A program made the translations under genes and the position numbers. A DNA stretch of 64,000 nucleotides from Branchiostoma lanceolatum (Eukaryota; Chordata; Leptocardii; Amphioxiformes; Branchiostomatidae): positions 14,061,464 to 14,125,463 of the forward strand of contig NC_089729.1 in the NCBI RefSeq assembly GCF_035083965.1, written 5' to 3'. The notes below the pieces were generated by a model. It searched no databases. It saw only the letters and a list, made by a program, of their open reading frames with translations, and had not been told where the DNA came from. Numbering within the stretch: the stretch's first letter is position 1; the number at the start of each line of letters is the position of its first letter. This document shows, in pieces, positions 19,125 through 45,473 of the stretch.

Positions 19125-22100
19125 TCAGTTGATTTGGGTGTAGCCTTTCTTAGAGGGGTGTGAGGTAGACATCCATTCAACCTATGTCGTGAAAAAAAAT
19201 CAGTTAGCCTGGAATGAACTCAATGACCATCATTGCACATTTTATACATAATGGCTATCTTCACTTTCAATTGGTCCAGAAGAATGAAAAATCATAGATA
19301 TCAGATGTCCAATGTATTCCATGTCTTCACTGAATAACCAACTTTAGTAAGCGGATTTGCTGTCTGAAACGTCTGACTATTTCAAAATTTAATTCCGCGG
19401 TGCTTGAGTAACAGTCATTTGGCGTACCTTTTTACCTGGATGTGTAGCCTTCATCAATGCATTAGCTGCATCCTCTGGCATGGGTTAGTTGACGACTATT
19501 CATAGTCTTGCGGTACATCCATATGAGACGACCTTAAGGATGAAAAGTGATTTTATTTTGACTATAATTTGTATCAAAGGTGGACTGTGTTTTTACCTGA
19601 AAGAAGGTCAGTGTCCCCGCTACACAGAAGACGACCACTATGAGCAGCTGCCACTGTAGGAGTAGGTACGTGCTGTAGAAGAACCCAGCCGCAGCGGTCA
19701 TGGACTGAGAAAACAGAAGAAAGAGAATAGCTGAAATCTGAATGACCCTCGTCAAAGACATTATCTATTGTTGCGAGGATAAATCTCCCTTTAGAATACA
19801 TCCATCCGTGAGTAAATTCATCAGGCTGGTAAATTACTGGGTAATAAATGCTGTTTGGGTCAGAAAATCTTCTCCAGTCATGAACCGTGATGAGAGGAGA
19901 TATAAACTCAGTCACGTTTGGAACCGCATTCTTCACACTGCAGCAGCGACACCTAGCAGCAGGGTGAGGTAGAGACAGCCCTGAGGAAGGTTACAGACGG
20001 TCACCAAAACGTCCACTAGGTTTGATAACCATCCCAATACATATGTATCGATATCAGCCACAGATTATAGGTTTTTGTACAAAGCTGCTAATAGAATAAA
20101 GGAATAAAAAAGGGACAGCAGGGCAGAGCTTACTTCAGTACTCATACTTTGTTCTTACCAACAGGTCATGGGTCATGAGTGAGTGAGTGAGTGAGTGAGT
20201 GAGTGAGTGAGTGAGTGAGTGAGTGAGTGAGTGAGTGAGTGAGTGAGTGAGTGAGTGAGTGAGTGACAGGTCCAGGTTGATTAATTGAGTATGTAAATAC
20301 CGTGTAACGTTAACCTATAAAGGCATTTTCAGCGTGGAACAGGTAAGGCTCCAGCTTTTATTGACTCGATGTATTTAATGTTACCTGAGTGAAGAAGAAT
20401 AGAGCGAACGCCGGCGCGCTGTCTTCTGAGAACAGAGAGCCGAGGAGGGAGTACACCTGGGTGTTGTAACAGCTGTCCCCTAGCCCCAACAGGAAACCAC
20501 ATAGAACAGCCACGTACTTACTACAGAAGAATAACGTCATTATTATCATATCATTGGTGTAACAGCTTGTACGACAAAAAGAATTCTGTACAAGGTATAA
20601 AGAACTTTATAGCTATTACCTCATGATTTTAGTCTTATTCTTGCTACAATGAAAAAGTGAACGAAATATTTATAATGTGTAGATACATGCACGTTAAAAT
20701 CAATGTGTACTTACATGCACGTTAATGTATCATCTTTAGTGTGCATGCGTTTAACCGGCAAGTTGATTCTGTTATGAATATTTACAAGCAACAACAATAT
20801 AATCATACACTCGTATACCAATGAAATATTCAATGAGGCTTTGAACATTAAAGTGACACGGTGTTCTTTGTAGCTATACGCTTTAGAAATATACCCTTTT
20901 AGAAAAATACATTTATCTATTTGGATTTTTTTCATTTTGGAAAAGACAATGACATTTTGGCGCTGCAATTAAGTTGACAAATTATTTTAACAGTGACACA
21001 TACCAAAACAAGTAATATACACATCAATCTTGACAATAAAGAAAAATTCATTCACCATTAATTCAAGTCCTAAACGTAACGTGTCACCCTCCTATTACCA
21101 TAGGTCATAATAAACTACGCATTAATTGTATATCTTTATCCATCTATTTATTTCGGACGTACTTGGAGTCTATAAGTACAGGATAGTAGGTAGCATCAGT
21201 GACAATCTCAGTGATAGGTGAGGACTGCGGCAGGTTGATATAGATGAGGTAAAACGCCGTCATGTGGACGATGAAACCGAGCAGGATGATCGGGTCCCGT
21301 CCGTGTCGGTTGGCTAACTTTCCACTCAGGCCAAACGCTGCCCCACCTGGTGTGGAAAGAAAAGTTCGCGGGCAAGAGCACCACCTAGCAGTTAATGATA
21401 AAACTTCACCTTTCTTCCTCGCCTGTAAAAAGAACATGAACTTCACACCCTGTCAAATCAACGCCAACCCCTGTCACGATAGTAGGTCATAGCATACCCA
21501 ATTGATTGTGGTAACGGTCAGTTTTCACAAATTAGAGGAATGGTTAGTAGAGATACCCTGTATCTTAAACACACTACATTCTAGTATAAAACTCGGAACA
21601 ACGTTTCTGCTATATTTGCATCATTAGTATTGTAACCAGTGGGTGTGATTTTGACTGTTTGTTTGCTTGTCTTGGTGTGTGACCATAGTATGCGAAAGTT
21701 GCAGAGTTGCATGATATAAAGCGGAAGTGGTGTAATAGGGTGCTTGGAGAACTGGGTGTGTGGGTTGGTTGTTTTACTTTGTTCATTTCGGTTGGTTAAT
21801 GTATCTATATAATAAGTCAATGTTCAGTCAATGTCCATCATTCTACGTTTGATTGTAGTTTTTAGTAAGAAGTTAACTCTTTTGTAACTCTTCTTCAAGT
21901 ACATTTTCTGACAGTAGTGTGACCTTACCTATAATTTCTCCAGCTCCAAGGAAAGCTCCCGAGATGCCGATGAGAGACTTGGCCTCTTCGCCAAAGGCCT
22001 TCGTGTTACCGATGCAGGTACCGTACACACCGCTGTACAAATTCAGCTCCAATCCTGAAAAAAAGTAGAATGTAATTTCATACAGATTTCATTGTATTTT

Positions 22101-25100
22101 GTGACACTAGGCAACGTGTAACAACGGCAGACGAAACTAGGTGTAATATACGTTACGGGTTACGGTTGTTATAAAATACGTCTTTCTATCGTCTTCAGAT
22201 TGATGTTTATGCAAATGTTATCTTACCTGTGTATGCAAAACACACCCCGAGCAAAAGCATCTCTTTTGTCTTAAAAAGTTGGATGGAACGTTCTGTAAAC
22301 AAAATATTCAAAGTTTGATCGCAAGACTATTGACGAATTCCTGCGGTTTGTAAGATACAATGTAAGTACTTGTCAGAGTGACAACAAAGTTTCAAGACTT
22401 GCGCATGGATTTCAAAGGGTCTTGGTACATAAAAAATGCAGTGAGAAAAACTAGAACTGAAAATAAATTTCAACTTACTGAATGCTTGCAGTGGCCCCTC
22501 ATTAGACTTGTTTCCACTGTTTAACAGAACAAACATTTTGTTTAGTATATCTTGGTACAATATAAGGCAGTTCTTGTACGAGACTGAACTTTGTGATTGA
22601 AATAAGGTTTATCTATTATAAATTCATTGTCCGAACCTGTTGTCATCTTGAGAGACTGAGCGATCCTCTGATGGTTTCTTGTTTCTCAGTAAAAGCAACA
22701 TGAGTGTTCCCACGCAGGACACCACCAGTAGCACCACATACACTTGGATTCGGGTTTTCGCTGGAGGTAAAAGGTGGAAACATGTGTAAGAGCACCACCT
22801 AGCAGGCCATGACAAAACTGCACTCATCTGTACGAAGTTCTTTCCCATAATGAAAAGTGTACGGCTCACCATCAATGATCTCCTTCCCAGTGAACTCCTG
22901 CCAGACGAAAAGGTTCCCAAACAGTAGACTGGAGGAAAAGGAAAAAAAAAGAATCCAACCATCGTGTATTGAACGAGACAAATACCTAATTCATGATCAT
23001 ATAACCAGATGACGTCGACCAATAGGAAGGCTCTATTTGGCAAAAACCACTGGTCGTTATTACTCATTGTTGACCACTTTTTGCGAGGATTCAATTGGAT
23101 GACTTTTCACTTCAGTTGAGTTTAAATGTTTTTCACTTCGCTCACTCGGTGATTTATTCAGTGGTTATAGGACCTGACCAAGCCTATAACGTTTCTCCTA
23201 AGTAGGGTTTATATGGTGTCAGGTTGTGGCTTTGTAATAACTATTGTCAATCATGAGTTCTACGATACTCGAATTTGTTCAAAGATAACTTTTGACCCGC
23301 ACGATGATGTGTTTAAAAAGACGAACATTCAGAAATCGGCATCAGCCTTTAGAATGCAAAGCACGAAGAAAGATGGCACTAATGTGTAAAAAATTGTTAG
23401 GAAAGCTGACTTCACCTGCTTGCCTGTAGTGCCCAAAAGATGCCGCTGTTTCTTCCGATGGTTTCTGGTGTGGAGTTCAGCGTTAAAAATGAACCTTCTC
23501 CAGTCCACAGAACTGTTACAGAATGAGTATGTAGAATACAACACTGTCAAATCTTGCTATAATTGTCATATAATTTGAGATACTATTACTAGAACCAGTA
23601 TATTCTATACCGATAGAAAGGTGAAGCACTGAAAAGTTCGAATTCATCAGTAGATTTCATAATCAAAATCATCTAGTCTTGTACTTACTCTAGTAGTAGA
23701 ATATGATCAACACGAGTTTATATAATTAGGCGAAAAACCAATATACAATATCTGTGATCACGTACACTTCAACCTGAACAGATATATAGCTGCAGTATAT
23801 GTGGTTTATCATCCTTACTTGCCGCGGCCAGTCCTAGTAACACAGAACCCACGTACAGAGCCCAAACCATTGGGTAGATGAAGACGGCTATGAAGAGGCT
23901 GCAAAATGATGAAATAGATAAGCGTTACGTTAAACATATCAGCTAAGCCACCGACAACTTCAATAAACAAGAAATCGAAGAGATCGGTCAAAGATTTTCA
24001 GTTTTGTGAATTTCTCGTTTTATTCAGCCTTGTGAATTTTTTGCTACTTTTTATCAACATTCATTTTTGATGCGGCTAAGCTTTATTCAATTGAATATGA
24101 AATGCAAAACAGCGTTTTAAAGACTAAAAACATATACGATGAAACCATAATCTTGACGCATGTAAGATAACAGAAAAAAATGTACAGTCGTGTTGTATCC
24201 GTGTCTCTCTCACCAGTATATGACTGCTCCGATGACCATGGAGTTCCGAGGACCACACACGCTCACTACTGACGGAGCTCCCCAGTTCGCCACAGCAAAC
24301 ACGGTGTAGATGATAGCCAGACTGTATTGGAAGTAGGAATATAAAAGCATAACGTTACAGTATAATATGTGAGTCACTTTGTACAGTCACCTACTGTCTG
24401 AGTTATTGAGGTCCCGTAAAAGGTGGGGTTGGCTAGTGGGGTGGTCTACTTCAGCAGGCTACCCTTTCTGTCTTCCCTTCAGCCTATCCAAAGCTTGAAC
24501 ATGGGGCTCAGAAAGGGTAGCCTCCTGAGGTAGCCCACCCCACTAGGCTAGCCCTGAAGGAGTCCGCCTTTTCCGGAAAGCCATATGCATCAGGCACATG
24601 TTCTTCTTTGTTACCTGATATAGCCACTGCCTCCGTCGAACTTCCCCTCTTCCTGAACACTTTGTATGACGGTTTCCTGCAAAGAAATAAAAGCAGCCAG
24701 TTACCCAGGTTGTGTTGGTGGTCATCAGCATACCACCATAGTTAATTCAAATTTTAACATTCAACATTCACAGGAACACGTATAAAAGTTATACGTTATT
24801 CACTGTGTCTAGAGCACGCTATTGGAAGGCGAAGCCAAATCCTTTCCTTCCACCGCCTTTTACCTCCGGCAACCGAATTCAGTTACCCATGTTTGCATTT
24901 GGATGGAGTGGGGATCTAGGAGTGTCTTGTAGAGTGCCTAATTCCCAAGAGCACTACGTCTAGCCACAGGAATGCCAGAAATCGAACTTGTGACCTCTCG
25001 ATCTCGCGTGCGCTATGTACTTTGTATCTAAGGCCTTGTCAGCAACACCGAAACACGTTATAAGAAGCAAGAACACTGAGAATGCAAGCCTATAAATTGA

Positions 25101-27010
25101 AAAAACACGTGGAAGATCTTATAGGATATCCAGTAGGATCATCGTTTTGCTTCGGTATTCCAATGAAAACTGTGACAGTGCTCTTTTAATGTTTTTTTTG
25201 CGTTCGGCGCCTTCGCGCCGGAACGCAATGTCCTGGCTTTTACCTTCGATGCATGCATGCATCAAGGAGGCATGCTGTTTGGTTCAACACTGTGTCGCAC
25301 ACCAGAAGACCTTATATGGCAATACGTTCCCAAATCCTTGTATAGCCGTTGCCTTATATGGCAAGGGAGCACGAAAAGGCAGGCAGGCTAGATTTGCATG
25401 ACACACAGGAGGGCGACCGCATGTAACTGCTACAACTGTTCGGAAATATCATTGCATTGTGGTTTCGGACTTTGATATCCTGAAAAATGACCATATTACA
25501 TCTATTCCACAAGATTGCAGAAGAAAAAAAATGATTTCGTCAAGAAAACGACCAAAAATCGACATAAATGATACCATATAGTGAGGGTATAGCATTACGT
25601 ACAGAGAGTCGGGTTACGTACCGCAGCTTAGCCCATCTGGCAACGCGAAGCACTTCGGACCCAGAAGATCCGGGTTCGTGTCCGTGCATGGTTTTTTTAT
25701 TTTCTTTTTAGATATTGAATATCAAAAATATATATTGATATTATATTAATCTATCAATATCATATTTATGAATATCAATTTTTCATTTTTTCATTAATAA
25801 ATAAAGAAATATTTTATATTTGTTATTTTTAAATATTCATTTAATATATACAAGGCCTTTGTCTTATGAACAGGACTTCATAGATTCCAAACCCGGCATT
25901 CGAATTTTTCTGTTCATTGTAATGGAAAATACCGTGCAGCGGCTCCTATGCGCGGTAAGATGATTCTTGCAAAACACTCGCCACTAAACTTCTATCCCCG
26001 ATGTAAACAGAGGCTCTTGATGTTGTTTGCAAAACAGCGATCCTTTGTTACAGTAGCAAATGCTCCATTGTTCAGTATCGACTTCATTCAGACAACACGG
26101 ACGTGGAAAGTGGCGCCGCTCGGCACAAAACTATGGGAATTTTCATGAATTTTAGCAAAATTACCCAGGAAAATAAGGAAGAAATGTTGTAAATGCGGAA
26201 ACCAGAATAATACGGATGAGGTAGCTGTTGATTTGTTTGACATTTGGTAGTCATTTTAGATAGAACCTTAGCTGTTATGAATTTCTATTTCACTTAATTA
26301 CCATAGTGCTGATGATTCAATGGTGCTTTTTCAAATTTTATGTTTTATTGCGTGCCATGTACATAATTACATTGATAGCTTTTATAATGAGCCTATTGTA
26401 CATTTTACAAATAAGTACAAGTTGTAGGCCAAGACCAGCTTTTTCAAAAGCACTTAAGTTAAGTGACGTAACTTCAAAATTGCTTTCCCCAATCTGCCTT
26501 TCTCTATTAAAACAGTACTCATTTCCCAAAATGACAATTTTTCTTATAGACTGAACAGCCCTTGAGTGACTTTCTCTGGCAGATTTTACTTCAAGTAAAG
26601 GGAAAAGACAATTCACACTCATAAACGTAGCCGAAACGCCAGCTTTTTTGAAAAGCTCTTGTTTTCTTCTCACGAATGGATTCGTCAGACAAAAATATAA
26701 GGCTCCGTAAACATCAAATGTGTTAAGCATCATGCTCGTAGAGACATACATTGAGAAATCTAGAAAAGGCATACAGAAGAATGTAGTATTTAGCAACGCC
26801 ACATATCGTTCTATATACATTTAGTTTCCTTGAGGTTGAATCCAATGTTGACACACCACCGTTGTTTCCAAGAGTGTTCTATCAAAAGTCTTTCAATGAA
26901 TAAAGTCTTTAATTACTTACCTCAATCATACCAGCCGTGTTGAAAGCGGTAAAAATGAACATAAACGATAAACCCAAAATAACAACATTGATGGTCGATC
27001 TGTCCGCCAT
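19125..27010 (-). CDS. MFSD11: MFSD11/UNC93-like transporter, copy A
   Basis: Fourteen minus-strand exons: 27010-26921, 24676-24615, 24321-24214, 23898-23819, 23512-23416, 22928-22870, 22760-22637, 22516-22479, 22292-22227, 22054-21929, 21346-21163, 20520-20385, 19704-19597 and 19181-19125. This gives 444 aa, against about 449 for human MFSD11. The signature segments match the family: IILGLSF-type TM1, GYISLAIIYTVFAVANW, LNSTPETIGRNSGIFWAL, YSGVYGTCIGNTKAFG, GRDPIILLGFIVHMTAFY, FLLGLGDSCYNTQVYSLLG, SEDSAPAFALF and the terminal VEW...GYTQIN. MFSD11 is a multi-pass major-facilitator membrane protein whose substrate is not established. The donor of exon 7 (GTTCGG) is weak. The start ATG lies in an AAAATGGCGG context. 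The copy is full length with no disabling change and is a tandem paralogue of the gene at 29693-41791. Confidence 0.92.
19985..20022 (+). repeat. Dispersed-repeat tail motif
   Basis: CTGAGGAAGGTTACAGACGG then TCACCAAAACGTCC resembles 30344-30384 (GAAGAAGGTGTCTGACAGAC, ACCAAAATGTC). This looks like the end of a dispersed element family. Confidence 0.4.
20175..20265. repeat. (GAGT)n microsatellite
   Basis: More than 20 pure GAGT units in intron 12 of MFSD11 copy A. Confidence 0.95.
24431..24553. repeat. Foldback element in MFSD11-A intron 2
   Basis: Arms 24431-24470 and 24509-24553 are inverted copies (CTAGTGGGGTGG..., GGCTACCCTTTCTG) with about 38 bp between them. Confidence 0.75.
24895..25015 (-). 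mobile_element. tRNA-derived SINE copy (minus)
   Basis: On the minus strand a B-box-like GTTCGATTTC follows GAGAGGTCACAA and precedes a SINE-body motif, GTGCTCTTGGGAATTAGGCA, similar to the body motif at 63403-63420. Confidence 0.5.
25618..25692 (+). mobile_element. tRNA-like head with T-run
   Basis: TTAGCCCATCTGG (A-box-like) and GGGTTCGTGTCC (B-box) are spaced as in a tRNA, followed by T7. The anticodon arm and acceptor stem do not fold canonically, so this is a SINE head or pseudo-tRNA. Confidence 0.45.
26338..26820 (-). other. Unassigned 160-codon open frame
   Basis: The longest open frame outside the recognised genes, ATG to stop, minus strand, inside intron 1 of MFSD11-A. The product has hydrophobic stretches at both ends and no motif I recognise. 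Two related FxKAG(V/L) segments occur. There are no splice signals tying it to the host gene. It could be chance or a transposon remnant. Confidence 0.2.
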
Positions 27011-29692: not shown

Positions 29693-32600
29693 TCACCCTA
29701 TCTGGGTATAGCCTTTCCTGGAGGCACTGGCTGTCTTCCACTCAACCTGTAGTTAAAGATAAATGATTTAATGTTTTTTTGTTGCAAATCTCCAAGCCAT
29801 TGCAACACCACTACTGACATAGTGGTGCGTACTTAAACCCGAGTTTAGGTTTAGGTTCGGACTCGAGTCCAGAGGTTAAGGTTCAGGTTCGGACTTGAAA
29901 GTCCGGACTTGAACCAGTGGAATATGTGTGCTACGAATATCTTTTTCCTGTTTCATGTAAAATTGCATATCTGCATATATTTTACATGCAATTTGAAAAC
30001 TATGATATGCGGAATTATATACAGTCAGTAATTAATGCAGAAGTTCAGTTATTAACACAAAACAGCAATGTTTTCATATTTTTCCAGTGCAAATTTCACG
30101 ATCTAAGGAAGCTTTAAGATGGTTTAAATCAAAAAGGAGTGTAAAAGCAAGAGATTTTTTTTCAAGTCTTGACTTGATTCCTGATGTTTAGGTTTTTTTG
30201 GACTTGAACCTAAAGGTTAGGAGCAGGTCCGGAACAGGTCCGGGGTTTAGGTACGCACCACTATACTGACATGCCACATTTTTGTAAGGTCATATGACAC
30301 AAGTGAATGGATCTACGGTGAGAAGCAGTGCTCCAGTCAGAAGCTCTGAAGAAGGTGTCTGACAGACACCAAAATGTCAGCAGGTGAGATTACCTGGTTG
30401 TGTAAAAAGAAAACTCCAATATCCTGTGTTCTACCAACCTGATGAAATCATTTTTTAATGGATCAGTGTTTTGGAAGTAGGGAAAAGTCACCTTTGAAAA
30501 CTCTGTGTGTACCGCAGTTGTTACATTTTTTATTGTGCAATCAATATTGACAAATTCACTGATAGAATTACTGTAGCATACACACGTATAAACAATTAGA
30601 TATCTATTGTTTGGCAAAACTTATCATAATAAGTAAAAAATCAATAAATGTAAATATTCTACTCCAAGGCCAACCATAATATAGATAGAACTTGCTGATA
30701 AACAATACTAACCAAACTGTACTGCTAATGGAATAGATTCAAAATTACTTCAAAAAAAATTGTACAAGGTAAATTTCAATAAATGTAAATCTTCTACTCC
30801 AAGGCCAACCATAATATAGATAGAACTTACTCAATAAACAATGCTTACCAAACAGTGTACTGCTCACAGAATAGAAAAATGTCTTACTTCAAAGAATGCC
30901 AAAGTCCCTGCCACTCCGAAGACCACCAGGATGAGCAACTGCCACTGCAGCAGGAGGTACGTACTGTAGAAGAACCCAGCTGCAGCTGTCAAGGACTGCA
31001 AGATAAAAAATTGAGAATCAGAAACAAGTATGAGACAACAGCTGTACTACCGTTGTATTACTTGAATGTTTAAAATCCTTGAATAGCTATAAACTTTGGG
31101 TTCATTCTAAAAACTTTAAAACCTTGTTGGCTGGTTGTCTAAGGACATACATCTGGGCTCGAAATACTGGGTGCATGTGCACCTTTGTGCACCTAAAATT
31201 GGTGCTGTGCACCTAATTTCTTAATGTGGGTACACCCGAGCACCTAGATATATTTGCAGGCTATAGGGTAAAGGTACTTTAACTGTACCCTAGTATGCAA
31301 AATATTCCTGAAAGATAAGTATAAAAAATACTTTGATGCTTTACTTTCAAGTTAGCTATAGAATTTCAGGTTGATGTTCTTAAGAGAGGCAGTAGAGTTT
31401 GTAAACATGTCTTGCTGATATTCTACTTCATTTCATGTTGTGCACCCAATTTTTATTTTCTGTGCACCTAAATTTCTAGGTTAGGTGCACCAGTTTCCAC
31501 AAATGAATTTCCAGCTATGTTGTGTATCAAGCAATACTCACCTGGACGAATTTGAAGAGGGCGAACGCAGGTGCGCTGTCCTCTGGGAACATGAACCCCA
31601 GGATTGAGTACACCTGTGTGTTAAAACTACTGTCTCCCAGGCCCAGCAGGAAACTGCACAGGATGGCAAGATACTTACTGCGGAGGGGAAAGATAAAGTG
31701 ATTTTAGAGACAAAATAATAAGATATAAAAACATTTGGTAACTAAGAAAACAGTTATGATAAATGCCATATTTTATTGATATGCAAACTAACATGTGTTA
31801 AAGGATGAATGAATGAACAAATGAATGAAGGGATGGCTGAACAGATGAATGAATGAATGAATGAATATATGGATGGCTGAGATAACTGAATGGATAAATG
31901 AGTGGCTTATTTGAACAATTTGTGAAACCAGTTGTTTATAAATAATGAGCACAAAGTATTCTACAGCAGGCAAAATGAATGAAAGAATGAATGGATGGAA
32001 AATTGTACAAAAAATATATACGAAAATATGATCGGTATAAAACCTTTACACACTGGTTAACATTTATAATGTAGGTTTAATTTACAGTGCTTAAAATAAT
32101 TCCAAATATAAAGAATACAGATAGTGTGTAAACATACAAATCAAACACTACATAATATTAAATCCGACTTCTGTCAACTTGAATGCTTGGACTGTCACAG
32201 TAATAGTGAAAGAGTACTGTATCAACAGTTAGTTACAGTTCTCGTCTGTTATCTGAGTTGTAAGTTTGAAACAAGTTTTGTACGGTTCTTGGAGGCAAAT
32301 GTGTAGATGTTGGCATATTGGCGCAACAAATCTGTGTGTGTCTTTTGGCACACTTTTGACAGATTAGCCAAAGAGGCTCAATGGGCATCACTCAAACGCC
32401 AAGGAAGGTCGTGTAAAGACATGGTGAGCATCGAACCTGGGACCTTGACAAAGACTGGAGCTGATCAGTCGAAAATTTGGGTAAGTCCAATTTTTGTGTT
32501 GGCATTTACAGTTTAAACTCCATTCAGAACCTGGGACCTATTGGTTTAGAGTCCAATGCTCTACCGTCGCTACACCGACACCACAATAATAAACAATAAT

Positions 32601-35600
32601 GTCACATAATCGCTATTTTTGTGAAGGCACGTACTTGGAGTCTATAAGTACGGGATAGTAGCTGGCATCATTGACAATGTCCGATATCGGTGAGGACTGC
32701 GGCAGGTTGATATAGATGAGGTAATACGCCGTCATGTGGACGATGAAACCGAACAGGATGATCGGGTCCCGTCCGTGTCGGTTGGTCAGTTTCCCGCCAA
32801 GGCCAAACGCGGCGCCACCTGTGAAATGGGATAATCATATTAGTCTGATCACCCCTTTGATAGCCTGTATTGACAACTTGGACTGGTCCAAAAACATAGG
32901 AATAGAGGACACTAGAACAAACCACTATGGAGCAGAGGTAACTTCAAAAATACAAAACTTGAAAGAAAAAAGGTAGCCTAAAACTCGAACTGTTATAGTA
33001 ACAAAATGAAAAAAAATTGAAAGAAATTGCTGGTTATATTTCTGATACATCAAGTTCTATAGCACAAAGGATTTAATTGATACTGTATCATATAAACATC
33101 ATATAAACTCTCTTCTGATTGGTTCTATGGCTCACCTAAGATTTCCCCGGCACCAATGAAAGCGCCCGAGATGCCGATAAGTGACTTGGCCTGGTCACCA
33201 AAGGCTTTAGTGTTCCCAATACAGGTACCGTACACACCGCTGAAGAACGTCAGCTCAAATCCTGAAAGAAAAACCAAGATTTAAACTAAACGTATTGTAG
33301 TTTTTCTAAGGCCTCTATAGCTAAACCACTGGCTGGTATACATCTAACAATCATGTTTTACTTATGCCTTATACTATTTACATTTGTTGCATCTCAAGAA
33401 AACACAGAAAATGTATACTCTCCAAGCAGAGGAGTGGGTCCGGCTGGTTTTTGACGTGATTTTAGGTGTTTTTGTCGGGCTTCCTACTTAAGTTTTAGTT
33501 TACTTTGTCATGTTTTTTGTCTCACTAGCCAGACCCACTCCTCTGCTTGGAGAGTAGAAAATGTAAAGATTGAAAATATTATAAATCGTCTATGAAAAGA
33601 GAGTCATTTTTTAAAATGTTATGCTTGCACTCAACAAGTGCAATTAGAATATCAGAAAGTATCATATTTCAGGTGGTGGCCATATGAAGTTGGTTTGTGT
33701 ACATACATATGGCTGTATTCTCACCTGTGTATGCAAAACACAATCCCAGAAGGAGCATCTCTTTTGTCTTGAGAAGTTGGATGGAACGTTCTACAAGACG
33801 ACAGGAAAAAAAACATGCTGTATGAAAATCACCATAATATCAACCTGATGAACAAATCTAACAATTTTCAGAATAGAAAGGTTTAAAGTTACATCAAAAA
33901 AACCTTTCTATTCAGAAAATTCACAATGCAATCCATATCACTGAAAATCTACAATGTAGCCATTGAACAGATTTGAATTGCACTACTAACAGTGAGAGAA
34001 AGAAGAATACAGTTTCTACTCACTGAATGCTTGTAGTGGTCCTTCCCCTGCCTGGTCTCCGCTGTTAAGAACAAAACATCTTTTGCTGTATTTTAGCTTT
34101 TTTAACAGCAAAAATTATAATTCCAGTATTTTGGGCACTGTAGCAGAAACTTCTTCAGGTTCTGGAGAATTACAGATTGAGACACCTATCTTGAAGGTAG
34201 TGTGGTACAGTAAATGATATCAGCTGTTGTTGCTTGCCTACTGGAAGCTCTAGTTGCCAGGGGCTAGAATTAGCTTACACTGTTGCATGTCCAAATTAAA
34301 TGAAGGAGTGTTAAAGTTTAAACTGATTAAATGCTTCTTGGTCAAAATGTAATGTTACGAAGAAGCAAGGCATTGCACTAACCTGTTGACATTTAGAAGG
34401 TCGGATCGATCTTCTGGTCTCCTGTTTCTCAGTACAAACAACATGAGTGTCCCCACACAGCACACCACCAGTAGCACCACATACACCTGGATACGGGTTT
34501 TGGCTGGAGGTAAAAGGTGGAAACATGTGTAGGAGCACCATCTAGCAGTTAATGATAAAACTGCACCCCTGCTTTTCAGTAAAAACAACATGAGTGTTCC
34601 CACACAGCACACCACAAGCGTACACCTGGAGACAGGTTTTGGCTGGAAGTAAAATGTGGAAACATGTGTAAGAGCACCTAGCAGATCATGATAAAACTGC
34701 ACTATCAAAACATGAATGTTTTCACACAGCATACTATAGGTAAAAGCCCCACCACACTCAAACACTGGCTTTGTCTGACCAGGGACATTATATATTCTAT
34801 ATAATGTCCTTGGTCTGACCAAAGAGGTTTTAACCTCCTTGGTCTGAAAAGAAAAACTTGGCAACTTATGTATGCACACCACCTAGCAGGTTATGTGAAA
34901 ACTGCAGAGTGCTCAAAGAATTGTTACATTTCATGTTATATGGATACAAAGAGTTATGGAGGATTAAGATGTACAGTCAAACCTGTCTATAGCGGTCACT
35001 CAAGGGACTGGCCAAAACTGGCCGCTAAGGACAGGTGGCCGCTATGGAGAAAATGTCGATTAATTGACCAAGAGTGACACATATTTTCAGTACCCACTGA
35101 GATACATTTATTCACCGTACAGTACACATGTAAACATTGCATAGGTAAGTCACATTTTAGAAGTCGATTGTTGTTCTTTTACTTCTATTATGGGCTTGAA
35201 AAACGAATTATTGTATCTGCCAACTCCAAAATCCATGGCTTGCTCGGGCTTCATGTCTGTACAGACCAGCATCGCCATACTCTACTCTTGATCCTTCGCG
35301 ACTGCTTCGCCGTAGGCACACGCGTCACCAACGAGTTTTAATCATATGAAACAAAGTCCTTCGCAGCAAAATGCCACCTAGTTAGTTAAGAACAAAATAC
35401 ATGATGCTCAGTTGCCACTTACTGTTCGTTTTCGACCGTTTTGAAACATAAAATCGTGGCGATAGTTTTCCTTAGTCTGTTGTTGTTTCCCTTCCCGCTT
35501 GTCATCATCAGCTTCTACCATTATGCTAATAGGGTACTCAGAAGAAGGTCGCTCTTTTGATGGCTTTTTTCTTTTCAGAAATGTGCAATAGCCCAAATTT

Positions 35601-38600
35601 TACATCATCTTAATGTTTTTCATATTTCTTTTGAAGCTTTTGGTAGAGTAATTATCCTCAGTGATACTTTGCAGCAAAATAAATTTAGCGCATTATACCT
35701 CCGAAACAGTGGTGTCTTCCGTTGACCTTTTTGTTGCTGACTATCAGCGCCACTTTTGAAAATTGCGCGAAACACGTTTTGACTTTGAGCACCGGGGAAA
35801 ACGGATATTGGGCCGGCATTCAAACATTTTCCGAACTTACCGCATCAGCTACATGTGCGAGTTGTATTTTCCAAAAAGCTGCCGTAATATTTGTCCAGTC
35901 GAAATGCACAGAAATGGTCAATTTTGCTACGATGTACAAACGCAAGCCATGTGAAGAAAATTATACTGTCAACTTCGCGTCAGACCATGGATTTTCTAAC
36001 AAAGATAAAACATTCTGGTTTTCTTTATTATCATCCAATCCAGTTGAGTCCACATAAATTTGATAACTGCGTGAAAAAATGAAGATTTTGAACCCAGCGT
36101 GCGGTGGCGATGCGGCTTCTACCGGCGCGCCATGACCGTTACCGACAGTGTTACTGTACTCGCGGGACTGAAAATCGTCTGGCCGCGACCGCGTTGGACA
36201 GGTGGCCGCTATAGCCTAATTCTTAATGCTTATGTCAATGGGAAAAATCCAAGGGACCGACAAAAAGTGACCACTATGGGCAGGTGGCCGCTATGCAAAG
36301 GTGACCGCTAATACAGGTTTGACTGTATTTATCAAACATGTCAGTACTGAGTACTTACAATCAATGGTTTCCTTCCCACTGAACTCTTTCCATACAAAGA
36401 GGTTCCCAAAAAGCAGACTAGAAAACAATAAAACAGTTAAAATCATCAAAACCAAATTTCAGACTAAAATTTCATAGGATTGTACAATTATACCTTATTT
36501 CAGAATTGCATTTTAGAGCAATTTGAAGTAGGGAAACCTTTACCTGCATTGTAGCAGTGCCCAAAATATGCCGCTGTTTCGTCCAATAGTTTCTTGAGTG
36601 GAGTTGGTGGTAAGGAAGCTTCCCTGTGCTGTCCATATCACTGAAAACAATCATACCATACAATGATACACAATGATTATCATAACCCTTCTGCCATACT
36701 TGCACATCATGAATTAATAGTATAAAATCATTGAATAAATTCTCAGATTTTTAAAATGTTCATGTTTGTAATGATATGATAAAAGCTCAAGTAAGATTCT
36801 TATGACAAGCTTAATATTCTTAAACAATGTAAAATGTATACCAAATAGTAGTTACTAATTAAAAGCAACTGGATATGATTTTGGAAACGGTCAGATGTTT
36901 CAAGTAGCATCTACTACTTTTCGGCAGTGGCACTGAGCAAGATTTTTTGATCAGCAGGTTTTTAACCAACAGGGCTCGAAATTCATTTTTGGAAACAGGT
37001 GCACTGGTGCACCCAACCAAGAGAATTAGGTGCACAGAAAGAAATTTGGGTGCACCACATAAGATAAAGTTGAATGTCAGCAAAACATTACAGTTTAATG
37101 CTCTTATAAATCTAATCAAGAACTTCACAATCTGTAATCAAATTTCAAACAAGTGATACATCAAATAAAGTGCAACAAAGGGTTCTATTGCTTTTTCTGA
37201 TACTGTTTACTGTTTACTAGTGTACAATGGTACCTTTACCCAAGGACGTTATATAGCTATATAATATAATGTCCTTGCTTTACCCTATAACCTACAAAAA
37301 TATCTAGGTGCACCAGTGCACCCACGGTCAAAAATTAGGTGCACAGCTCCAATTTTGGGTGCACACGCACCCAGTATTTCGAGCCCGAACCACGAATTAC
37401 ATTTGTATGAGTACCCCCTCAAACAGTGCACAGAGCCTACAGCCAGGAGTTTGCTAGCCCCAGACCCCGGGGAAGACCTCCGAAGAGATGGAAGGACCAA
37501 ATTGTGAAGGACACGGGCTTAAACAGTCGGGAAGCAGAGGCTAGGGCAAGGGACAGGACTGCTTGGAGGATCCTCCTGGAAAGCAAGGGGCCAGTTTCTG
37601 GCCTGAGCACGTAGGCAGGCAGGCAGAATATGCAAATAAAGTGAAGACAATTTGTAAAAGTGAAATGTAATATTCATACCTGCTGCACCCAGTCCAATAA
37701 GTACAGAGCCCAAATATAATGCCCACACCATAGGGTAGATGAACACAGCAATGAACAGGCTGGAAACAAAAACATACATCATGAGCATTCAATATCAAAT
37801 TGCTACTTTATTCTTAAATCTAGTATGCATAAATATATTCCGTAGGCATTCAATCATTTTGAGTATACATACTTTTCTTGGCAATTTCATAGAAAGACTT
37901 GCCAGACAAGACTAAAATCTATACTTTACTCATAATGATAATTTCTATGACAAGCAGTATATTCTCATGATAATAATGTTATTTTCCCTATACTTTACCC
38001 ATAGTAAAAAGTAAAGTAAAACAGTCCTCCTCAATTGAGGTGAAGCACAATCATTTTTCAAGTAGCTACAGTGGTAGTGCAATGTGGCTTTGCTATGGCT
38101 CACGTTTTTGGCCAAGCACACCGGGTCATCCCTTCTCATAAGTTTGTTGGATTCTTTTACGTCAGAGGCTTGATGCTCGAGGCTTATGCCAGAAGCTCCC
38201 TCATACACGGGGCCGCCAGCTTTACCTCCCCATCCAAAACAACATGTACGAGCTGGAGGCCACCCTAGGATTGAACTCAGGTGCAAAAGGAGCTCTATAA
38301 AACTAGAGAATCTAATTATGAATGATGAATTTTTCCTCACCAGTACATGACCGCACCAATGACCATGGATGTGCGAGGACCGCACACGCTCACCACGGAC
38401 GGGGCTCCCCAGTTCGCCACCGCAAACACCGAGTAGATGATCGCCAAACTGCAAGAGGAGATATTCAAGATTTGTTTCACAAAACCTTACATATACATTT
38501 GTATAACAGTATACAGTAATTGATGTACATTTGCCTAAACCTTAAAAGGATTACTTGTTGCATACTAATAGTAATAGCATACGCTTACTTCCTTTGGACT

Positions 38601-41600
38601 TTGGTCAAGCCATCATTAAGTTGAGTTGGTTTTATCTAACTTGGTCAAGTTGGTGTCCATACAATGTCATATTGAGATTGTATTTTACAATACATGCATG
38701 GAACCATATTATAGACAAATTCAGACCCACAAAAAGTGCTTGCATACACACATCATTTCGGTAAACAAACTGATCGCATCTATAAATGATATATGTTATA
38801 TAGGTCAATCCATAAATGTATTTCAATGTCGATGGAAATAATGTCAATGGAAATAATGGCTAAGTTCACCTCCTGTGATACAAGTGCATAGTTCAAGTTC
38901 TTGTGAGTCTGAAATTGGAATTTATCCATATTCCCTAATATTCAATACGCACCACATGGAAAAATTCTGGCGTGGGAGAGTATACCTCCAAGAAATCTAA
39001 GATATTTCAACTACTAGTGTACATGTATTTTGTTATTTTATGGAAGGTAACTGGGATATTAAGGCAACCAAAGCAATATCAATGCCCAAAGATGGAAATA
39101 GAATAATGCTGAAATCTTTACAGTACGGTAGTGACATTTACTAACACTGTTAAGCACATTTGAGCATTTTAAAACCGCAAAAAAAACTGCCGTACGATGA
39201 TCCCCTTAGTTTCCCGAGCCTACAAAAAGTCTGGCAATGATTTTCAGTGAGTTCTCACATCACAGCGACATAATTTTTTTGCATAATGGACGTTGCTATA
39301 CATTGATAATGCTATTTGAACTGATCATGTATAGAAATGACTAAATACATTGACTTTCAACATCCAATTTTCTGGCCCTAATATTGCTTGGGTTTCCTTT
39401 AAGCATAGGCATACTCCCACATATAAACCAAAGCTCACCTGTTATAACCACTGGCACCGATAAACAGTCCCTCTTGTTGAACACTTTGGATGACAGTTTG
39501 CTAGCAAGAGGGGGGGCGGCATTCACGGAACAATTACATACAAAGCAAGGTGTCTTATGATATTATAAGCCTTGATATGCACCTCTTTTGGGGCAGACAT
39601 TTCAACCATTGACCTCTATCAACACTGAAGAGATACAAAATGTTTGTCAATTATAATAATTTCTGAAAAATGCTTCACATGCATATACTAGTATACGTAG
39701 CCTGGAATCCATTCTATTCTAGCTCTAGTCTAGTACTAGTATTAGTACATGTACAAAAAATATATATCCTTCATAGGATAGTCTGGCACCCTGTATAGTA
39801 TACTCAAAGTCAAATGTTTGGCTAAAAAATTACATTTATTTATTAAAGGATTTAGTGAATGATTTCGAATATCGAGTACTTCATAGAAGCAGCGTCATGG
39901 GTATGCAACCTCCAAATGTCAATCTCTGTTACCATGGTAACAGAGATTGTTCTGAAGACCGTGTGACTTGGTGCCGATCAGAGCTCTCGTTTTTATTTCA
40001 GGAAAATGATTTACAAATGATCGTCTTCCAGACTATTCAGCGGAAGAAAGCGATCGGAGGAGCAGACTAGAACAGAATGGAATCCCGGCTACATGACGTT
40101 ACATTGTGTATATGATAAGGCCTCCAGAATATACTAAAGAAACAATAGAGGTCAATGGTTGAGAAGTGCCCACACTTCATCTTGAGGTTTGAAGGTCATG
40201 TCATCTCCACCTTACCTGGTATAACCACTGCCTCCTTGGAAGGTACCTTCCTTAAGGACACTTTGGATGACAGTTTGCTGTCAAGTGAGCAGAACTCGCA
40301 TGTTAAAAACAAGCGAATAGCATGTTAATTCTACATTTATGACAGTTATGTGTAACTTAGATTTTAGTTAATTAAATACTATGCCCCAAGCTGCCATGTG
40401 GGATCTTGTCTAGTATAGATGTACTAATTGATGTAGATGAACATACTGCTACCAGTAATTTCTATGTATACAACTGAATACAATGTATACAATGCCTACT
40501 ACTAGTAATATTGATTGTTGTTAATATAAAGACAATGAAAAGAATACAATAACCCATGAGATGAGTGGAAAACTTATGCTGCCAGCTCTCATAGGAATGA
40601 GCAGGGTTTTTCTAAAGAGGGTTACATGGGCGCTGCACCCCCCATGCCCTGACCATGCGCCCCCTTAGCCTGGTTTCAACCAAGCCCCGTGTCCGCTCGC
40701 CGCCTGTAACGGCTATCCAGGGGAGAGAAACCCCCGGACAGCTGGAGTTTGCGTTATACAGACTAGCGCCCCCTTACCCAGGGGAGCAGATCCTCTGTCA
40801 AGCAAAAATTCTAATTGACAAGGAATGCTACTTAGTAACCTAAGGTCACATGTGGCCACAGTCTTCAACTGTGACCTGCCTGGCTATAATTTCCTCCCCC
40901 AATTGCAAGAAGACTTAGAATGCCTTCCTCTAGAACCCATAAGCAATTTTTTTCCTGAAATAGTTAAACAGCCTCATTACCCTACACATTGGGTACCTAC
41001 CTGTGGCACTGGCTGCAAATACACCTGATATTATTATTATTATTATTATTAAATGAATGTTGCACTAAACCAGCGATAGCTGTTTATGTTATCGTCGACT
41101 GGTTGGCCAAATGACATTAGCAAATTAGATTACTTATTGATACCTAAATCAGCTGATCAAATTTTCTATTTATCTGCTAATTGTATGCATCATCATGACA
41201 AGTTTGTGATTATTCACACTTTATAACAAATGAGGAAAAGTAACAGAAGTAACACTCCTGCAAACGATATTGAATAGAAATAATCTAAGGTATAGACACT
41301 GAAAAATTATATCACTGAAAAATAATAATCAACTTTGCATTGCTCTTCTCTGCACGAATTAAACTTCTTAATTCGTGCAGATGAGAGCAAATTATGCAAA
41401 TTTGATATGTACAGTATCATCAAGAAGTTACATGAATGTATCAAATATATCAATACAACTTCTTGATGACACTGTATTCATGTGTAACACTACAAGACAT
41501 GTTGCAAAAGTTAACCTCGTGGCTTCGTGGATTTATTTATAGACCTACATAGACTTTGGTTCCTCAAATATAAAAGTTCATAAACAAATTTTTATGGGAT

Positions 41601-41791
41601 TGGAGTGTTTTCACTTTCAGCGGAGGGACAGTACGCGCATATCATCCTTTTGTCTCTTAAGATTGTCGTGAGAGCTGCCAAGACGGATAGTTAACACTTA
41701 CCTCTATCATACCACCCGTTTGAAAGGCGGTGAAGATGAACATAAAGGAAAAACCGAGAACCACAACATTGAATGTCCTCATGTCCGCCAT
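29693..41791 (-). CDS. MFSD11: MFSD11/UNC93-like transporter, copy B
   Basis: Fourteen coding exons: 41791-41702; exon 2 as either 40277-40216 or 39500-39439; 38448-38341, 37759-37680, 36640-36544, 36417-36359, 34503-34383, 34061-34024, 33790-33725, 33261-33136, 32818-32635, 31677-31542, 30995-30888 and 29746-29693. This gives 442 aa. Key segments: NVVVLGFSFMFIFTAFQTGG, VIWTAQGSFLTTNSTQETIG, GIFWALLQ, FFSGVYGTCIGNTKAFG, GRDPIILFGFIVHMTAYY, FLLGLGDSSFNTQVYSILGF, PEDSAPAFALFKFVQ and the terminal VEWKTASASRKGYTQIG. Every exon length matches copy A except exon 7 (121 vs 124) and exon 14 (54 vs 57). Copy B looks closer to vertebrate MFSD11 (VIWTAQG, ALLQ, FKFVQ, VEW) and sits head-to-head with SRSF2, so it is probably the positional orthologue. 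Predicted 12-TM major-facilitator protein; substrate unknown. Confidence 0.93.
29820..30263. mobile_element. hAT-type MITE with 8-bp target duplication
   Basis: Terminal inverted repeats TAGTGGTGCGTACTTAAAC and its complement (...GTACGCACCACTA), flanked on both sides by TACTGACA (29812-29819 and 30264-30271). 444 bp, non-coding, in the last intron of MFSD11 copy B. An 8-bp duplication is the hallmark of hAT transposition. Confidence 0.85.
30641..30876. repeat. ~135-bp tandem duplication in MFSD11-B intron 13
   Basis: Copies 30641-30740 and 30776-30876 share CTACTCCAAGGCCAACCATA and ATATAGATAGAACTT, with few differences. They abut exon 13. Confidence 0.85.
31154..31511. mobile_element. GTGCACC-rich dispersed element, copy 1
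   Basis: Begins GGGCTCGAAATACTGGGTGC and is rich in GTGCACC motifs. Related to 36972-37386 in opposite orientation. Confidence 0.6.
32385..32585 (-). mobile_element. Degenerate tRNA-SINE region (minus)
   Basis: On the minus strand GGTAGAGCATTGGACTC (tRNA-like) and GGTCCCAGGTTCGATGC (B-box) are present. GAACCTGGGACC occurs twice on the plus strand (from 32434 and from 32527). No intact tRNA. Confidence 0.45.
33416..33556. mobile_element. Hairpin element, CTCCAAGCAGA family
   Basis: Arms 33416-33447 and 33525-33556 (32 bp each, nearly perfect; CTCTCCAAGCAGAGGAGTGG) in intron 9 of MFSD11 copy B. Confidence 0.85.
34578..34745 (-). pseudogene. Two decayed copies of MFSD11-B exon 7
   Basis: Upstream of exon 7 (34383-34503), 34578-34643 repeats it (GTGTGCTGTGTGGGAACACT) with an internal deletion that breaks the frame. 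A shorter third remnant lies at 34704-34745. The flanking intron motif (AAAGGTGGAAACATGTGTA, AGCACC) is also repeated, so exon and intron duplicated together. Confidence 0.7.
34786..34820. repeat. Short AT-rich hairpin
   Basis: GGGACATTATATA and TATATAATGTCC form an inverted repeat; similar ATAATGTCCTTG occurs near 37266. Confidence 0.5.
34974..36325. mobile_element. pogo/Tigger-like non-autonomous DNA transposon
   Basis: Ends CAGTCAAACCTGTCTATAGC and (complement) GTGACCGCTAATACAGGTTTGACTG form terminal inverted repeats, flanked by TA on both sides (34972-34973, 36326-36327). Subterminal ACAGGTGGCCGCTAT repeats occur near each end. 1.35 kb; the internal 111-codon frame (35722-36057) shows no transposase motif. 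Lies in intron 6 of MFSD11 copy B. Confidence 0.75.
36864..36960. repeat. Dispersed repeat, partner at 52357-52452
   Basis: GCAACTGGATATGATTTTGG begins this copy; the partner holds the reverse complement of the whole ~95-bp unit. Confidence 0.75.
36972..37386. mobile_element. GTGCACC-rich element with GGGCTCGAAAT inverted ends
   Basis: Starts GGGCTCGAAATTC and ends ATTTCGAGCCC, about 415 bp, with many GTGCACC motifs. Intron 4 of MFSD11 copy B. Confidence 0.7.
37436..37640 (+). mobile_element. LINE 3' tail (5'-truncated non-LTR retrotransposon)
   Basis: A plus-strand frame encodes RGRPPKRWKDQIVKDTG, then AEARARDRTAWR, a C-terminal pattern common in non-LTR reverse transcriptase ORFs. It ends in a stop at 37612-37614. 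Only the end is present. Clade not determined. Confidence 0.65.
38078..38250. repeat. Dispersed repeat shared with 63566-63720
   Basis: Both copies contain TTTTGGCCAAGCACACC, TTGGRTTCTTTTAC and CCTCATACACGGGGC. Confidence 0.65.
39439..39500 (-). CDS. MFSD11: Alternative exon 2b of MFSD11 copy B
   Basis: 62 nt with AG before and GTGAGC after. Encodes QTVIQSVQQEGLFIGASGYN, equivalent to exon 2a. It starts at phase 0 and ends at phase 2. Confidence 0.85.
39697..40092. mobile_element. MITE with 26-bp inverted ends and internal palindrome
   Basis: Arms 39697-39722 and 40067-40092 (TGGAATCCATTCTATTCTAG versus CTAGAACAGAATGGAATCCC). A perfect 30-bp palindrome lies inside at 39920-39949 (half-site CAATCTCTGTTACCA). 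It sits between alternative exons 2a and 2b. Confidence 0.75.
40216..40277 (-). CDS. MFSD11: Alternative exon 2a of MFSD11 copy B
   Basis: 62 nt with AG before and GTAAGG after. Encodes QTVIQSVLKEGTFQGGSGYT. Same phases as exon 2b; joining both would shift the frame, so only one can be used per mRNA. Confidence 0.85.
40977..41050 (+). mobile_element. Retroelement tail ending in (TTA)n
   Basis: CTGTGGCACTGGCTGCAAAT, then ACACCTGATA and a (TTA)n tail. The reverse complement recurs at 45399-45473. A shared end with a variable simple-repeat tail fits LINE/SINE 3' ends. Confidence 0.7.
41334..41476. repeat. Two adjacent hairpins in MFSD11-B intron 1
   Basis: Hairpin 1: 41334-41362 pairs with 41370-41400 (CTGCACGAATTAA / TTAATTCGTGCAG core). 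Hairpin 2: 41410-41429 pairs with 41457-41476 (ATCATCAAGAAGTT / AACTTCTTGATGA). Confidence 0.8.
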
Positions 41792-42107
41792 GTTGACTGT
41801 CATGTGACAACAATGTGAATGCCCGATGTCTTCCGGAGAGTGCCGAATTAACTTCGGCTATATTCGGTTAACCTCGGTATTCTCCGGTGGTTTACGAGAC
41901 TTAATGAGTAGTGAATCGGAGAAGCTCGGTATTCTCCGGTGGTTTACGAGACTTAATGAGCGTCAGTGACGTAGCATTTGGAGGAGAAGGCACGCCACAG
42001 AAGGAGAGAGCTCTTGCGAACTGTAGTTTGTATCCGTTTTCATCGTCTTTTCTTCGCACACCCTTTGGCAATATTCCGTCAATATAGGGTCCAGAACGGT
42101 TGCCGAC
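41792..42107. promoter_or_regulatory. Bidirectional promoter of MFSD11-B and SRSF2
   Basis: 316 bp between the two ATGs. Contains two identical 36-bp copies (41873-41908 and 41925-41960, starting CTCGGTATTCTCCGGTGG), the motif TGACGTAG at 41968-41975, and an ATGGCGGAC context at the MFSD11 start. No TATA box seen. Confidence 0.7.
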
Positions 42108-43747
42108 ATGTCCTACGGGCCTCCGCCGCCGGATATCGAGCGGATGTACTCCTTGAAGGTCGACAACCTGACCTACAGGACAACGCCGGAGGACCTTCGA
42201 CGCGTCTTTGAGAAATATGGCGACGTCGGGGACTGCTACATTCCCCGCGACCGCTTCACGAGAGAGAGCCGTGGCTTCGCCTTCGTCCGTTTCTACGATA
42301 AGAGGGATGCCGAAGACGCCCTAGATGCGCTGGACGGGACGATCTTAGACGGCCGAGAGGTACGGGTTCAGATGGCGCGTTACGGGCGGCCCACTGACCC
42401 TTACCGCCGAGCACCACCCCAGCGGTCCCGGTAAGTTATCGCCCTCAAACAATCGTTATTTGTGGACAGAGTTCCTTTATTTTCCTCAAATTGTGTACTT
42501 TACAAGTCATACCCCCTTTGTAACGATGCAAAACGTTGCTGGGGTGTGTTGTGAGCTTGTAGTTTGCACGAGAAATGTGTTGAAAAAATCGAAAATGTTG
42601 TTTGAGCTAGAAGAAACATGGCGGCCGTGCGCGTGGTGATACGTCATCACCCCTCACAGTATGTTCCCGCCACAAGAACCCGGATGTACTTTGCTTGGCT
42701 GTACACGTGCTCACTTGCCATTGTTCTTTGTTCTTCGTTTGTGGTTGTAGCTTTCAGTGGGCAGCTAGGAAATAAAATAGGTTTGAAGTAATTGTAGAGA
42801 AGTAGCTGTAAACGCACACGGCTATGTATCCACTGTACAAAAGCATGAACTTGCAGCATAAATTTTGCTTGTTCCCTAGTATCTCAAGCCAAATTGAATG
42901 CAACTCATTATATTTATAGTACCATACCCAAGCCATGATCCTAAACCATGTGCTTTAAATGTTTTCATGATAATCTAGGTTGATTCATATACCCTCCCTG
43001 AAAATTTGTACCTTGCAAACTTTACAGTTAAACTTGCAATCTTGAGAGTTTATTTTTTGCAAATGAATGATGAACGTTTTTGTAACGTCTGATACATACA
43101 TGTGTCAAATTTTTATCGCTTTACTCGATAGATTAAGACATTAGGAAGTAAACTTAATAACTGTGTTCAGAGTATTATTGCTTCCAGAATTGTTTTTGAT
43201 AAATTTCTCACTGCAGGAAAATGGTTGTGTTGTGAGAATTGTCTCAAGCATTGTCTTAATTGCTAAAGCCAAAATTTGGTTGCTATGAATGTGGCATACA
43301 GTGATGCAAGCAGGACACATAGGTTCAATCATACACTTTTGTGCCATGTGAGAATTATGTTCTAAATCTCTTTGGCTCTGTCCCATTCTCCACAGTTACA
43401 GAGGATCTGGAGGCCGTTACAACAGTCGTTCCCGTTCACGCAGCAGGAGTCGGTCCCGCTCTCATCGCAGGTACAGCCGGAGTCGCTCCCACAGCCGCTC
43501 CCGAAGCAGAGGTCGCCGCTACAGGCAGCGCTCCTACTCTCGCAGTCCCAACCGAAGGTCCCGCTCCAAATCCCGCAGCCGTAGTCGCCACCGCGGCTCC
43601 CGTAGCAGGTCCCGCAGTAGACCCAGCCGCTCCAAGTCTCGCTCCAGGTCTGGGACGCCCAACAAGTCACGCAGCCACACCCCGGTCGAACAGCAGCAGG
43701 AGGAGAACCACGCCGCATCACGTTCCCGCTCTAGGTCTAAGTCGTGA
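42108..43747 (+). CDS. SRSF2: Serine/arginine-rich splicing factor 2
   Basis: Two exons, 42108-42430 and 43396-43747 (TGA), giving 224 aa (human SRSF2 is 221). One RRM (residues ~14-92) has RNP2 LKVDNL (16-21) and RNP1 RGFAFVRF (55-62). The hinge YGRPTDP keeps Pro95, the residue altered in human myeloid disease. An RS domain of Arg-Ser dipeptides follows from about 108 to the end (...SRSRSRSKS). SR proteins bind exonic enhancers and recruit U1 and U2AF in the nucleus. The single intron follows the RRM, as expected. The ATG is the first in the frame, in CCGACATGTCC context. Divergent from MFSD11. Confidence 0.97.
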
Positions 43748-45398: not shown

Positions 45399-45473
45399 AT
45401 AATAATAATAATAATAATATCAGGTGTATTTGCAGCCAGTGCCACAGGCAGGTACCCAATGTGTAGGGTAAGC
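45399..45473 (-). mobile_element. Retroelement tail, inverse copy of 40977-41050
   Basis: (AAT)n then ATCAGGTGTATTTGCAGCCA, the reverse complement of the other tail. Confidence 0.7.

Follow-up and report, generated by a model that had tools for sequence, protein, structure and literature searches.

Exons 2a and 2b of an MFSD11-like gene of Branchiostoma lanceolatum are quite likely a mutually exclusive exon pair that arose by an old duplication and has been kept by selection. The gene, referred to here as copy B, lies on the minus strand (41791 to 29693) of the window, i.e. the whole 64,000-nt stretch of contig NC_089729.1 that was analyzed (positions 14,061,464 to 14,125,463). This reading is directly supported by the anatomy of the exons, the logic of the reading frame, signs of constraint and the position of the encoded peptide in a loop, as judged by hydropathy. 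Beyond this, we infer that both exons are used, that faulty products decay, that the choice may be regulated and that it may affect a partner or substrate.

Gene models and anatomy of the exon 2 pair

Two MFSD11-like genes were modelled on the minus strand of the window. Copy B has 14 exons per transcript with either exon 2 and encodes a protein of 442 aa. Copy A (19125..27010) likewise consists of 14 exons in a matching arrangement, with a single exon 2, and its 444-aa product is 81% identical to that of copy B. Every intron of both models is of the GT-AG type. Both proteins match the Pfam UNC-93 family (PF05978; 372.9 and 363.6 bits, cut-off 22.9), the spliced copy B protein with an E-value of 2.6e-111, and on the strength of these matches both copies are clearly classed as UNC-93 family members. 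Pattern scans for relatives gave zero matches in viral contigs and 13 in prokaryote contigs, 0 of which were confirmed. Intron 12 of copy A contains a perfect tandem repeat of the 4-nt unit TGAG (20176-20266; 22.8 copies).

Copy B is arranged head-to-head with an SRSF2-like gene, an RRM-coding open frame on the plus strand (42108..42434) whose best match among solved structures is SRSF2 (E 1.8e-52). The start codons of the two genes are separated by 316 bp (41792-42107), and a common bidirectional promoter is likely. The label MFSD11, taken from an earlier note on this DNA, fits this neighbourhood: human MFSD11 and SRSF2 are neighbours in the same orientation as copy B and the SRSF2-like gene. 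The function of MFSD11 is described as incompletely understood (PMC8621210). Two further features were noted around the start of copy B. A pair of 73-nt inverted repeats (40977-41049 / 45399-45471), 99% complementary and 4349 nt apart, encloses exon 1 of copy B and the SRSF2-like RRM frame and is interpreted as a mobile element or as what a rearrangement left behind. Intron 1 of copy B contains two adjacent imperfect palindromes (41328-41406 and 41410-41476; together 41328-41476), each matching its own reverse complement at about 77%.

Exon 1 of copy B (41702..41791), which encodes the first transmembrane segment (TM1) and shares 77% aa identity with exon 1 of copy A, ends in phase 0, and exon 3 (38341..38448), which encodes TM2 and is common to both isoforms, begins in phase 2 at 38448. 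Exons 4-14 and their introns occupy positions 29693..37759, with the stop codon ending at 29693. Between exons 1 and 3 lie exon 2a (40216..40277; donor CAG/gtaagg) and exon 2b (39439..39500; donor CAG/gtgagc, C-rich acceptor), each 62 nt long and on the minus strand. An earlier note on this DNA had proposed two exons of this length 715 bp apart (40277-40216 and 39500-39439), each running from phase 0 to phase 2 and encoding related 20-residue peptides. The coordinates proved exact, the phases agree with those of the flanking exons, and the peptides, QTVIQSVLKEGTFQGGSGYT for 2a and QTVIQSVQQEGLFIGASGYN for 2b, are as written and identical at 14/20 residues (45/62 identical bases at the DNA level). 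The two exons are adjacent and homologous, with similar lengths and equal phases.

The first 20 bases of 2a and 2b (40258-40277 / 39481-39500) are identical, and the other 42 hold all of the differences. This identity may reflect gene conversion, or else constraint or a shared splicing signal. A 21-mer over the exon start occurs exactly at 2a and 2b and once in copy A with 3 mismatches (mean of 0.00 occurrences in 100 shuffles). That copy A has only one version of the exon was confirmed: its single exon 2 (24615..24676, minus strand; peptide ETVIQSVQEEGKFDGGSGYI) had no second copy in blastn searches at E up to 0.05, and in intron 1 of copy A tblastn at E up to 50 returned only a chance-level match (25993-25955, E 28).

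Inclusion of either 2a or 2b gives copy B a coding sequence of 1329 nt that is open throughout. If both exons (1391 nt) or neither (1267 nt) are included, the frame shifts and early stops follow, i.e. joint inclusion and joint skipping are both incompatible with the frame. The joined exon models thereby bear out the claim that double use breaks the frame. The more general claim, that transcripts must choose one exon, holds for functional transcripts, but not for all transcripts, as judged from joint-inclusion reads at human clusters (PMC5740500).

By hydropathy, TM1 lies near residues 6-25 and TM2 near residues 52-70, and exon 2 encodes residues 31-50; 11 rather than 12 distinct peaks of the profile exceed the cut-off. 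A published model of human MFSD11, built on UNC93B1, shows a 12-TM MFS protein (PMC8621210). The residues that vary between 2a and 2b had been assigned to an extracellular or luminal loop between TM1 and TM2. Hydropathy supports the loop, but its outside or luminal side comes from the UNC93B1 analogy and would hold only if that analogy does. The variable residues are 38, 39, 42, 44, 46 and 50. When the copy A peptide is included the same six positions vary, together with position 31 in copy A, and T32-V37, E40, G41, F43, G45 and S47-Y49 are unchanged in all three peptides. At five of the six sites copy A differs from 2a, and at five it differs from 2b. Residues 31-51 carry a net charge of 0 in the 2a form, -1 in the 2b form and -3 in copy A.

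In UNC93B1 the luminal loop between TM1 and TM2 affects TLR signalling (PMC11116816), and the exon 2 loop likewise lies between TM1 and TM2. The UNC93B1 loop is placed against the ectodomain of a receptor. However, UNC93B1 is a distant relative without a significant E-value match, and MFSD11 has no established receptor partner. A single-sequence search of solved structures at E up to 1 did not find UNC93B1; a three-sequence profile reached it at E 0.35, its N-terminal piece (profile positions 66-126, after exon 2) having an i-Evalue of 35. The sequences are too distant to give a residue-level map of exon 2 onto loop 1 of UNC93B1, and the parallel is one of position only. Proximity-ligation signals between MFSD11 and other atypical carriers have been reported (PMC5627054). 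If the loop swap were regulated, it would point to an important stretch of the protein, with the six variable residues as ready targets for swapping.

Constraint, splice sites and age of the pair

Exons 2a and 2b differ at 17/62 bases, distributed over codon positions 1, 2 and 3 as 3, 5 and 9; 6/20 residues differ, and 5 more codons carry a silent change only. Neutral drift was simulated to the observed divergence (20,000 runs per starting sequence, both copies or one copy drifting), and we counted the runs in which both frames, both pairs of splice dinucleotides and no more than 6 residue differences were kept. All features survived in 0.08-0.125% of runs with both copies drifting and in 0.11-0.145% with one drifting, whereas the weaker requirement of no stops plus intact splice dinucleotides was satisfied in 15-16% and 18-19%, respectively; the low retention of all features is mostly due to the count of residue differences. 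Under a stricter null, with every change confined to nucleotides 21-62 and coding features alone scored, these features survived in 0.9-1.6% of runs. The simulations contained no indels and are to that extent generous to the null. If the 17 differences were spread evenly, identity of the first 20 bases would have a probability of 0.0003 (0.012 for third positions alone). By the NG86 method, dN is 0.228 and dS 1.147 between 2a and 2b (dN/dS about 0.20), and 0.119 and 0.846 between the copy A and copy B genes (dN/dS 0.14). The splice sites and coding potential of both exons show constraint, in a test of modest power, since only 20 codons are available, and with weak acceptors. Both exons look as if they have been maintained by selection.

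The same gene provides an internal control for neutral decay, if a single case may serve as one. Exon 7' (34568..34642, minus strand) is a decayed tandem copy of exon 7 that resembles its first 83 nt, with 8 mismatches over 75 aligned bases; an 8-nt deletion shifts its frame, and the match stops before the donor. It is probably younger than the exon 2 pair, because it is less diverged than 2a and 2b are from each other, and it has decayed at this lower divergence, whereas the exon 2 pair is intact. Copy B would then display two fates of duplicated exons in one gene, exon 7 having decayed and the exon 2 pair having been kept. Around exon 7 (34383-34906) there are remnants of repeated tandem duplication, comprising exon 7' and partial repeats of the upstream intron.

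Both exons had been credited with good splice sites. When scored with a matrix built from the other acceptors or donors of copies A and B (the scored site left out; n=27), the donors of 2a and 2b were the highest and 5th highest of 27, and the GT-AG dinucleotides are present. The acceptors, however, are weak by this scoring: that of 2b is the lowest and that of 2a the 5th lowest, while the acceptor of exon 2 in copy A is the 4th highest. The polypyrimidine tract of 2b is C-rich, which the T-rich matrix penalizes, and another AG lies 17 nt upstream of the 2a acceptor. Strong donors combined with weak acceptors would suit two exons competing for exon 1, as far as so few sites can indicate. Given the low score of the 2b acceptor and the extra AG at 2a, one or other exon might be used rarely.

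Over all 62 bases the differences number 17 between 2a and 2b, 16 between 2a and the exon of copy A, and 15 between 2b and the exon of copy A, counts that give no order of events. Over bases 21-62 (42 nt) they number 17, 13 and 12, respectively, a pattern that could be explained if the exon duplication is at least as old as the gene duplication. In that case copy A would have lost an exon, and both exons are predicted to occur beside SRSF2 in other lancelets.

The intervening intron and the choice between exons

A MITE with a perfect palindrome had been noted between 2a and 2b, and the element is real. The MITE-like sequence (39697..40092) has 26-nt terminal inverted repeats (39697-39722 / 40067-40092; 88%) that enclose a perfect palindrome of 30 nt (39920-39949); inspection by eye showed no target-site duplication. 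More striking than the MITE is an 18-bp perfect inverted repeat (39602-39619 / 40145-40162) whose arms lie outside the MITE and on either side of it. At 91% identity the arms extend to 23 nt, with arm 1 (40145..40167) placed 48 nt after exon 2a and arm 2 (39597..39619) 96 nt upstream of exon 2b. Sixty mononucleotide shuffles of the intron produced inverted repeats of at most 12 nt when a loop of at least 50 nt was required. In the predicted fold the 18 arm pairs have pairing probabilities of 0.91-1.0, and 18/18 are still predicted to form when the MITE is left out; the duplex of the intron flanks without the MITE has an energy of -77.6 kcal/mol, matched by 0/500 dinucleotide shuffles. The whole intron folds better than 20/20 shuffles (z -4.7), a score to which the MITE contributes. 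The MITE seems to have inserted later into an intron that forms a stem. No further copies of the arms or of the palindrome were found in the window at up to 3 mismatches, and Rfam and tRNA scans gave no matches. A hairpin over the 2a acceptor was considered as a regulator and dropped, since 26/200 shuffles fold equally well.

Three mechanisms of exclusivity were considered and rejected. Steric exclusion depends on a branch point within about 50 nt of the donor of the first exon; here the intron measures 715 nt, and 2b is preceded by an AG exclusion zone of 51 nt, which places the predicted branch point hundreds of nucleotides from the 2a donor. Incompatibility of U2 and U12 sites does not apply, the donors of exons 1, 2a and 2b being without the U12 consensus in a donor pattern test. 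For a docker-selector arrangement, an ungapped Watson-Crick search revealed no competing pair between introns, the longest matches being 13 nt between intron 1 and the intervening intron and 10 nt for the other two intron pairs.

We propose that an old tandem exon duplication gave rise to 2a and 2b, which selection has kept, and that a functional transcript would join exon 1 to either 2a or 2b and continue with exon 3. A transcript that includes both of them or lacks both would be frame-shifted and is expected to be destroyed. Exclusivity would most likely result from the removal of such products, together with two weak 3' splice sites competing for the donor of exon 1, a competition that cell-specific splicing factors may bias. 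The choice would swap 6/20 residues in the TM1-TM2 loop and leave the remainder of the UNC93-family protein constant. A fuller scheme, with two protein forms differing in the TM1-TM2 loop only, the exon choice setting the partner, and the choice steered jointly by the intron stem and by SRSF2 from the same divergent promoter region, seems to us very doubtful.

Other readings of the pair have to be weighed against this proposal. The weakness of both acceptors would suit a situation in which a single exon is used and the other is a relic that has yet to decay, and two drifting copies stay stop-free by chance in 44-48% of the simulations. On the other hand, neutral retention of all features is about 0.1%, coding features alone survive the stricter null in only 1-2% of runs, exon 7' has decayed though less diverged, and third-position differences in 9/20 codons indicate that the duplication is not recent; we consider such a relic unlikely. 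Amphioxus genomes are very heterozygous, and two haplotypes of one exon could in principle have been assembled in tandem. This artefact is extremely improbable: 17/62 coding differences, a similarity of 2a and 2b limited to about 75 nt, and the absence of same-strand similarity between the three neighbouring introns at E below 0.7 together lie far above allelic divergence.

The early stops in transcripts with both or neither exon are also what would be seen if the second exon were a poison or regulatory exon, with one exon coding and with joint inclusion or skipping cutting output through decay. The intron stem would shorten the distance between the 2a donor and the 2b acceptor, and the head-to-head neighbour is SRSF2-like; SRSF2 autoregulates through decay. 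A poison exon would have no need of coding constraint, however, and a homologous peptide is kept in each exon, which makes this reading very improbable. The stem across the intervening intron might instead be a switch that directs the choice, an idea compatible with the competition proposed above. Its length compared with the shuffles, its predicted pairing and duplex energy, the closeness of its arms to the two exons and its independence of the MITE all favour such a role. Against it, neither exon is looped out as in docker-selector systems, the arms may derive from the termini of an older mobile element, the whole-intron score includes the MITE, and the hairpin at the 2a acceptor does not stand out from shuffles; on balance we find a switch rather unlikely.

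Comparison with known systems

No paper in the literature searched pairs MFSD11 with amphioxus, and for human MFSD11 an alternate donor and a retained intron are listed, not mutually exclusive exons (PMC7554623). As far as the searched literature goes, the candidate pair is likely new for this gene and of a well-known type, and if the proposal is true, a UNC93-family member would join the transporters with exon-swapped segments.

The copy B stem has a parallel in FGFR2, in which an intronic stem lies between exons IIIb and IIIc. The IIIb and IIIc exons of FGFR genes are tandem-duplicated and mutually exclusive (PMC5703972, PMC9741552), and amphioxus Fgfr is reported to use such exons as well (PMC5703972). 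Like 2a and 2b, exons of this type are adjacent, homologous and of equal phase, and one homologous stretch is swapped; the copy B pair, in contrast, is a candidate predicted from genomic sequence.

Exons Ab and 3 of U2AF1, for which regulators and branch points have been mapped (PMC5224494), resemble 2a and 2b in being duplicated exons with 3' splice sites of unequal strength. The same account places inverted repeats in the upstream introns of U2AF1, and copy B also has an intronic inverted repeat. Exons 4a and 4b of OGDH are likewise two duplicated exons, with exclusive use documented in PMC7969005, where distant branch points are said to restrict intron size and to prevent transposon insertion. 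Copy B differs in its 715-nt intron carrying a MITE and in its short AG exclusion zone.

Clusters governed by docker-selector or bidirectional RNA pairing, such as those of Dscam, 14-3-3zeta and srp (PMC6071210), share with copy B a long intronic inverted repeat close to the exons. In copy B, unlike these clusters, both arms lie in one intron between the exons, and no competing pairings were found.

Among human mutually exclusive clusters, 377/629 are frame-incompatible, and joint-inclusion reads are present in 83/377 of the clusters with exons not divisible by three (PMC5740500). With joint reads at this frequency, rare double transcripts would be compatible with exclusivity in copy B. Like 2a and 2b, exons of the human frame-incompatible clusters have lengths not divisible by three, so that including two of them disrupts the frame; for 2a and 2b, a doubly included product would be expected to decay.
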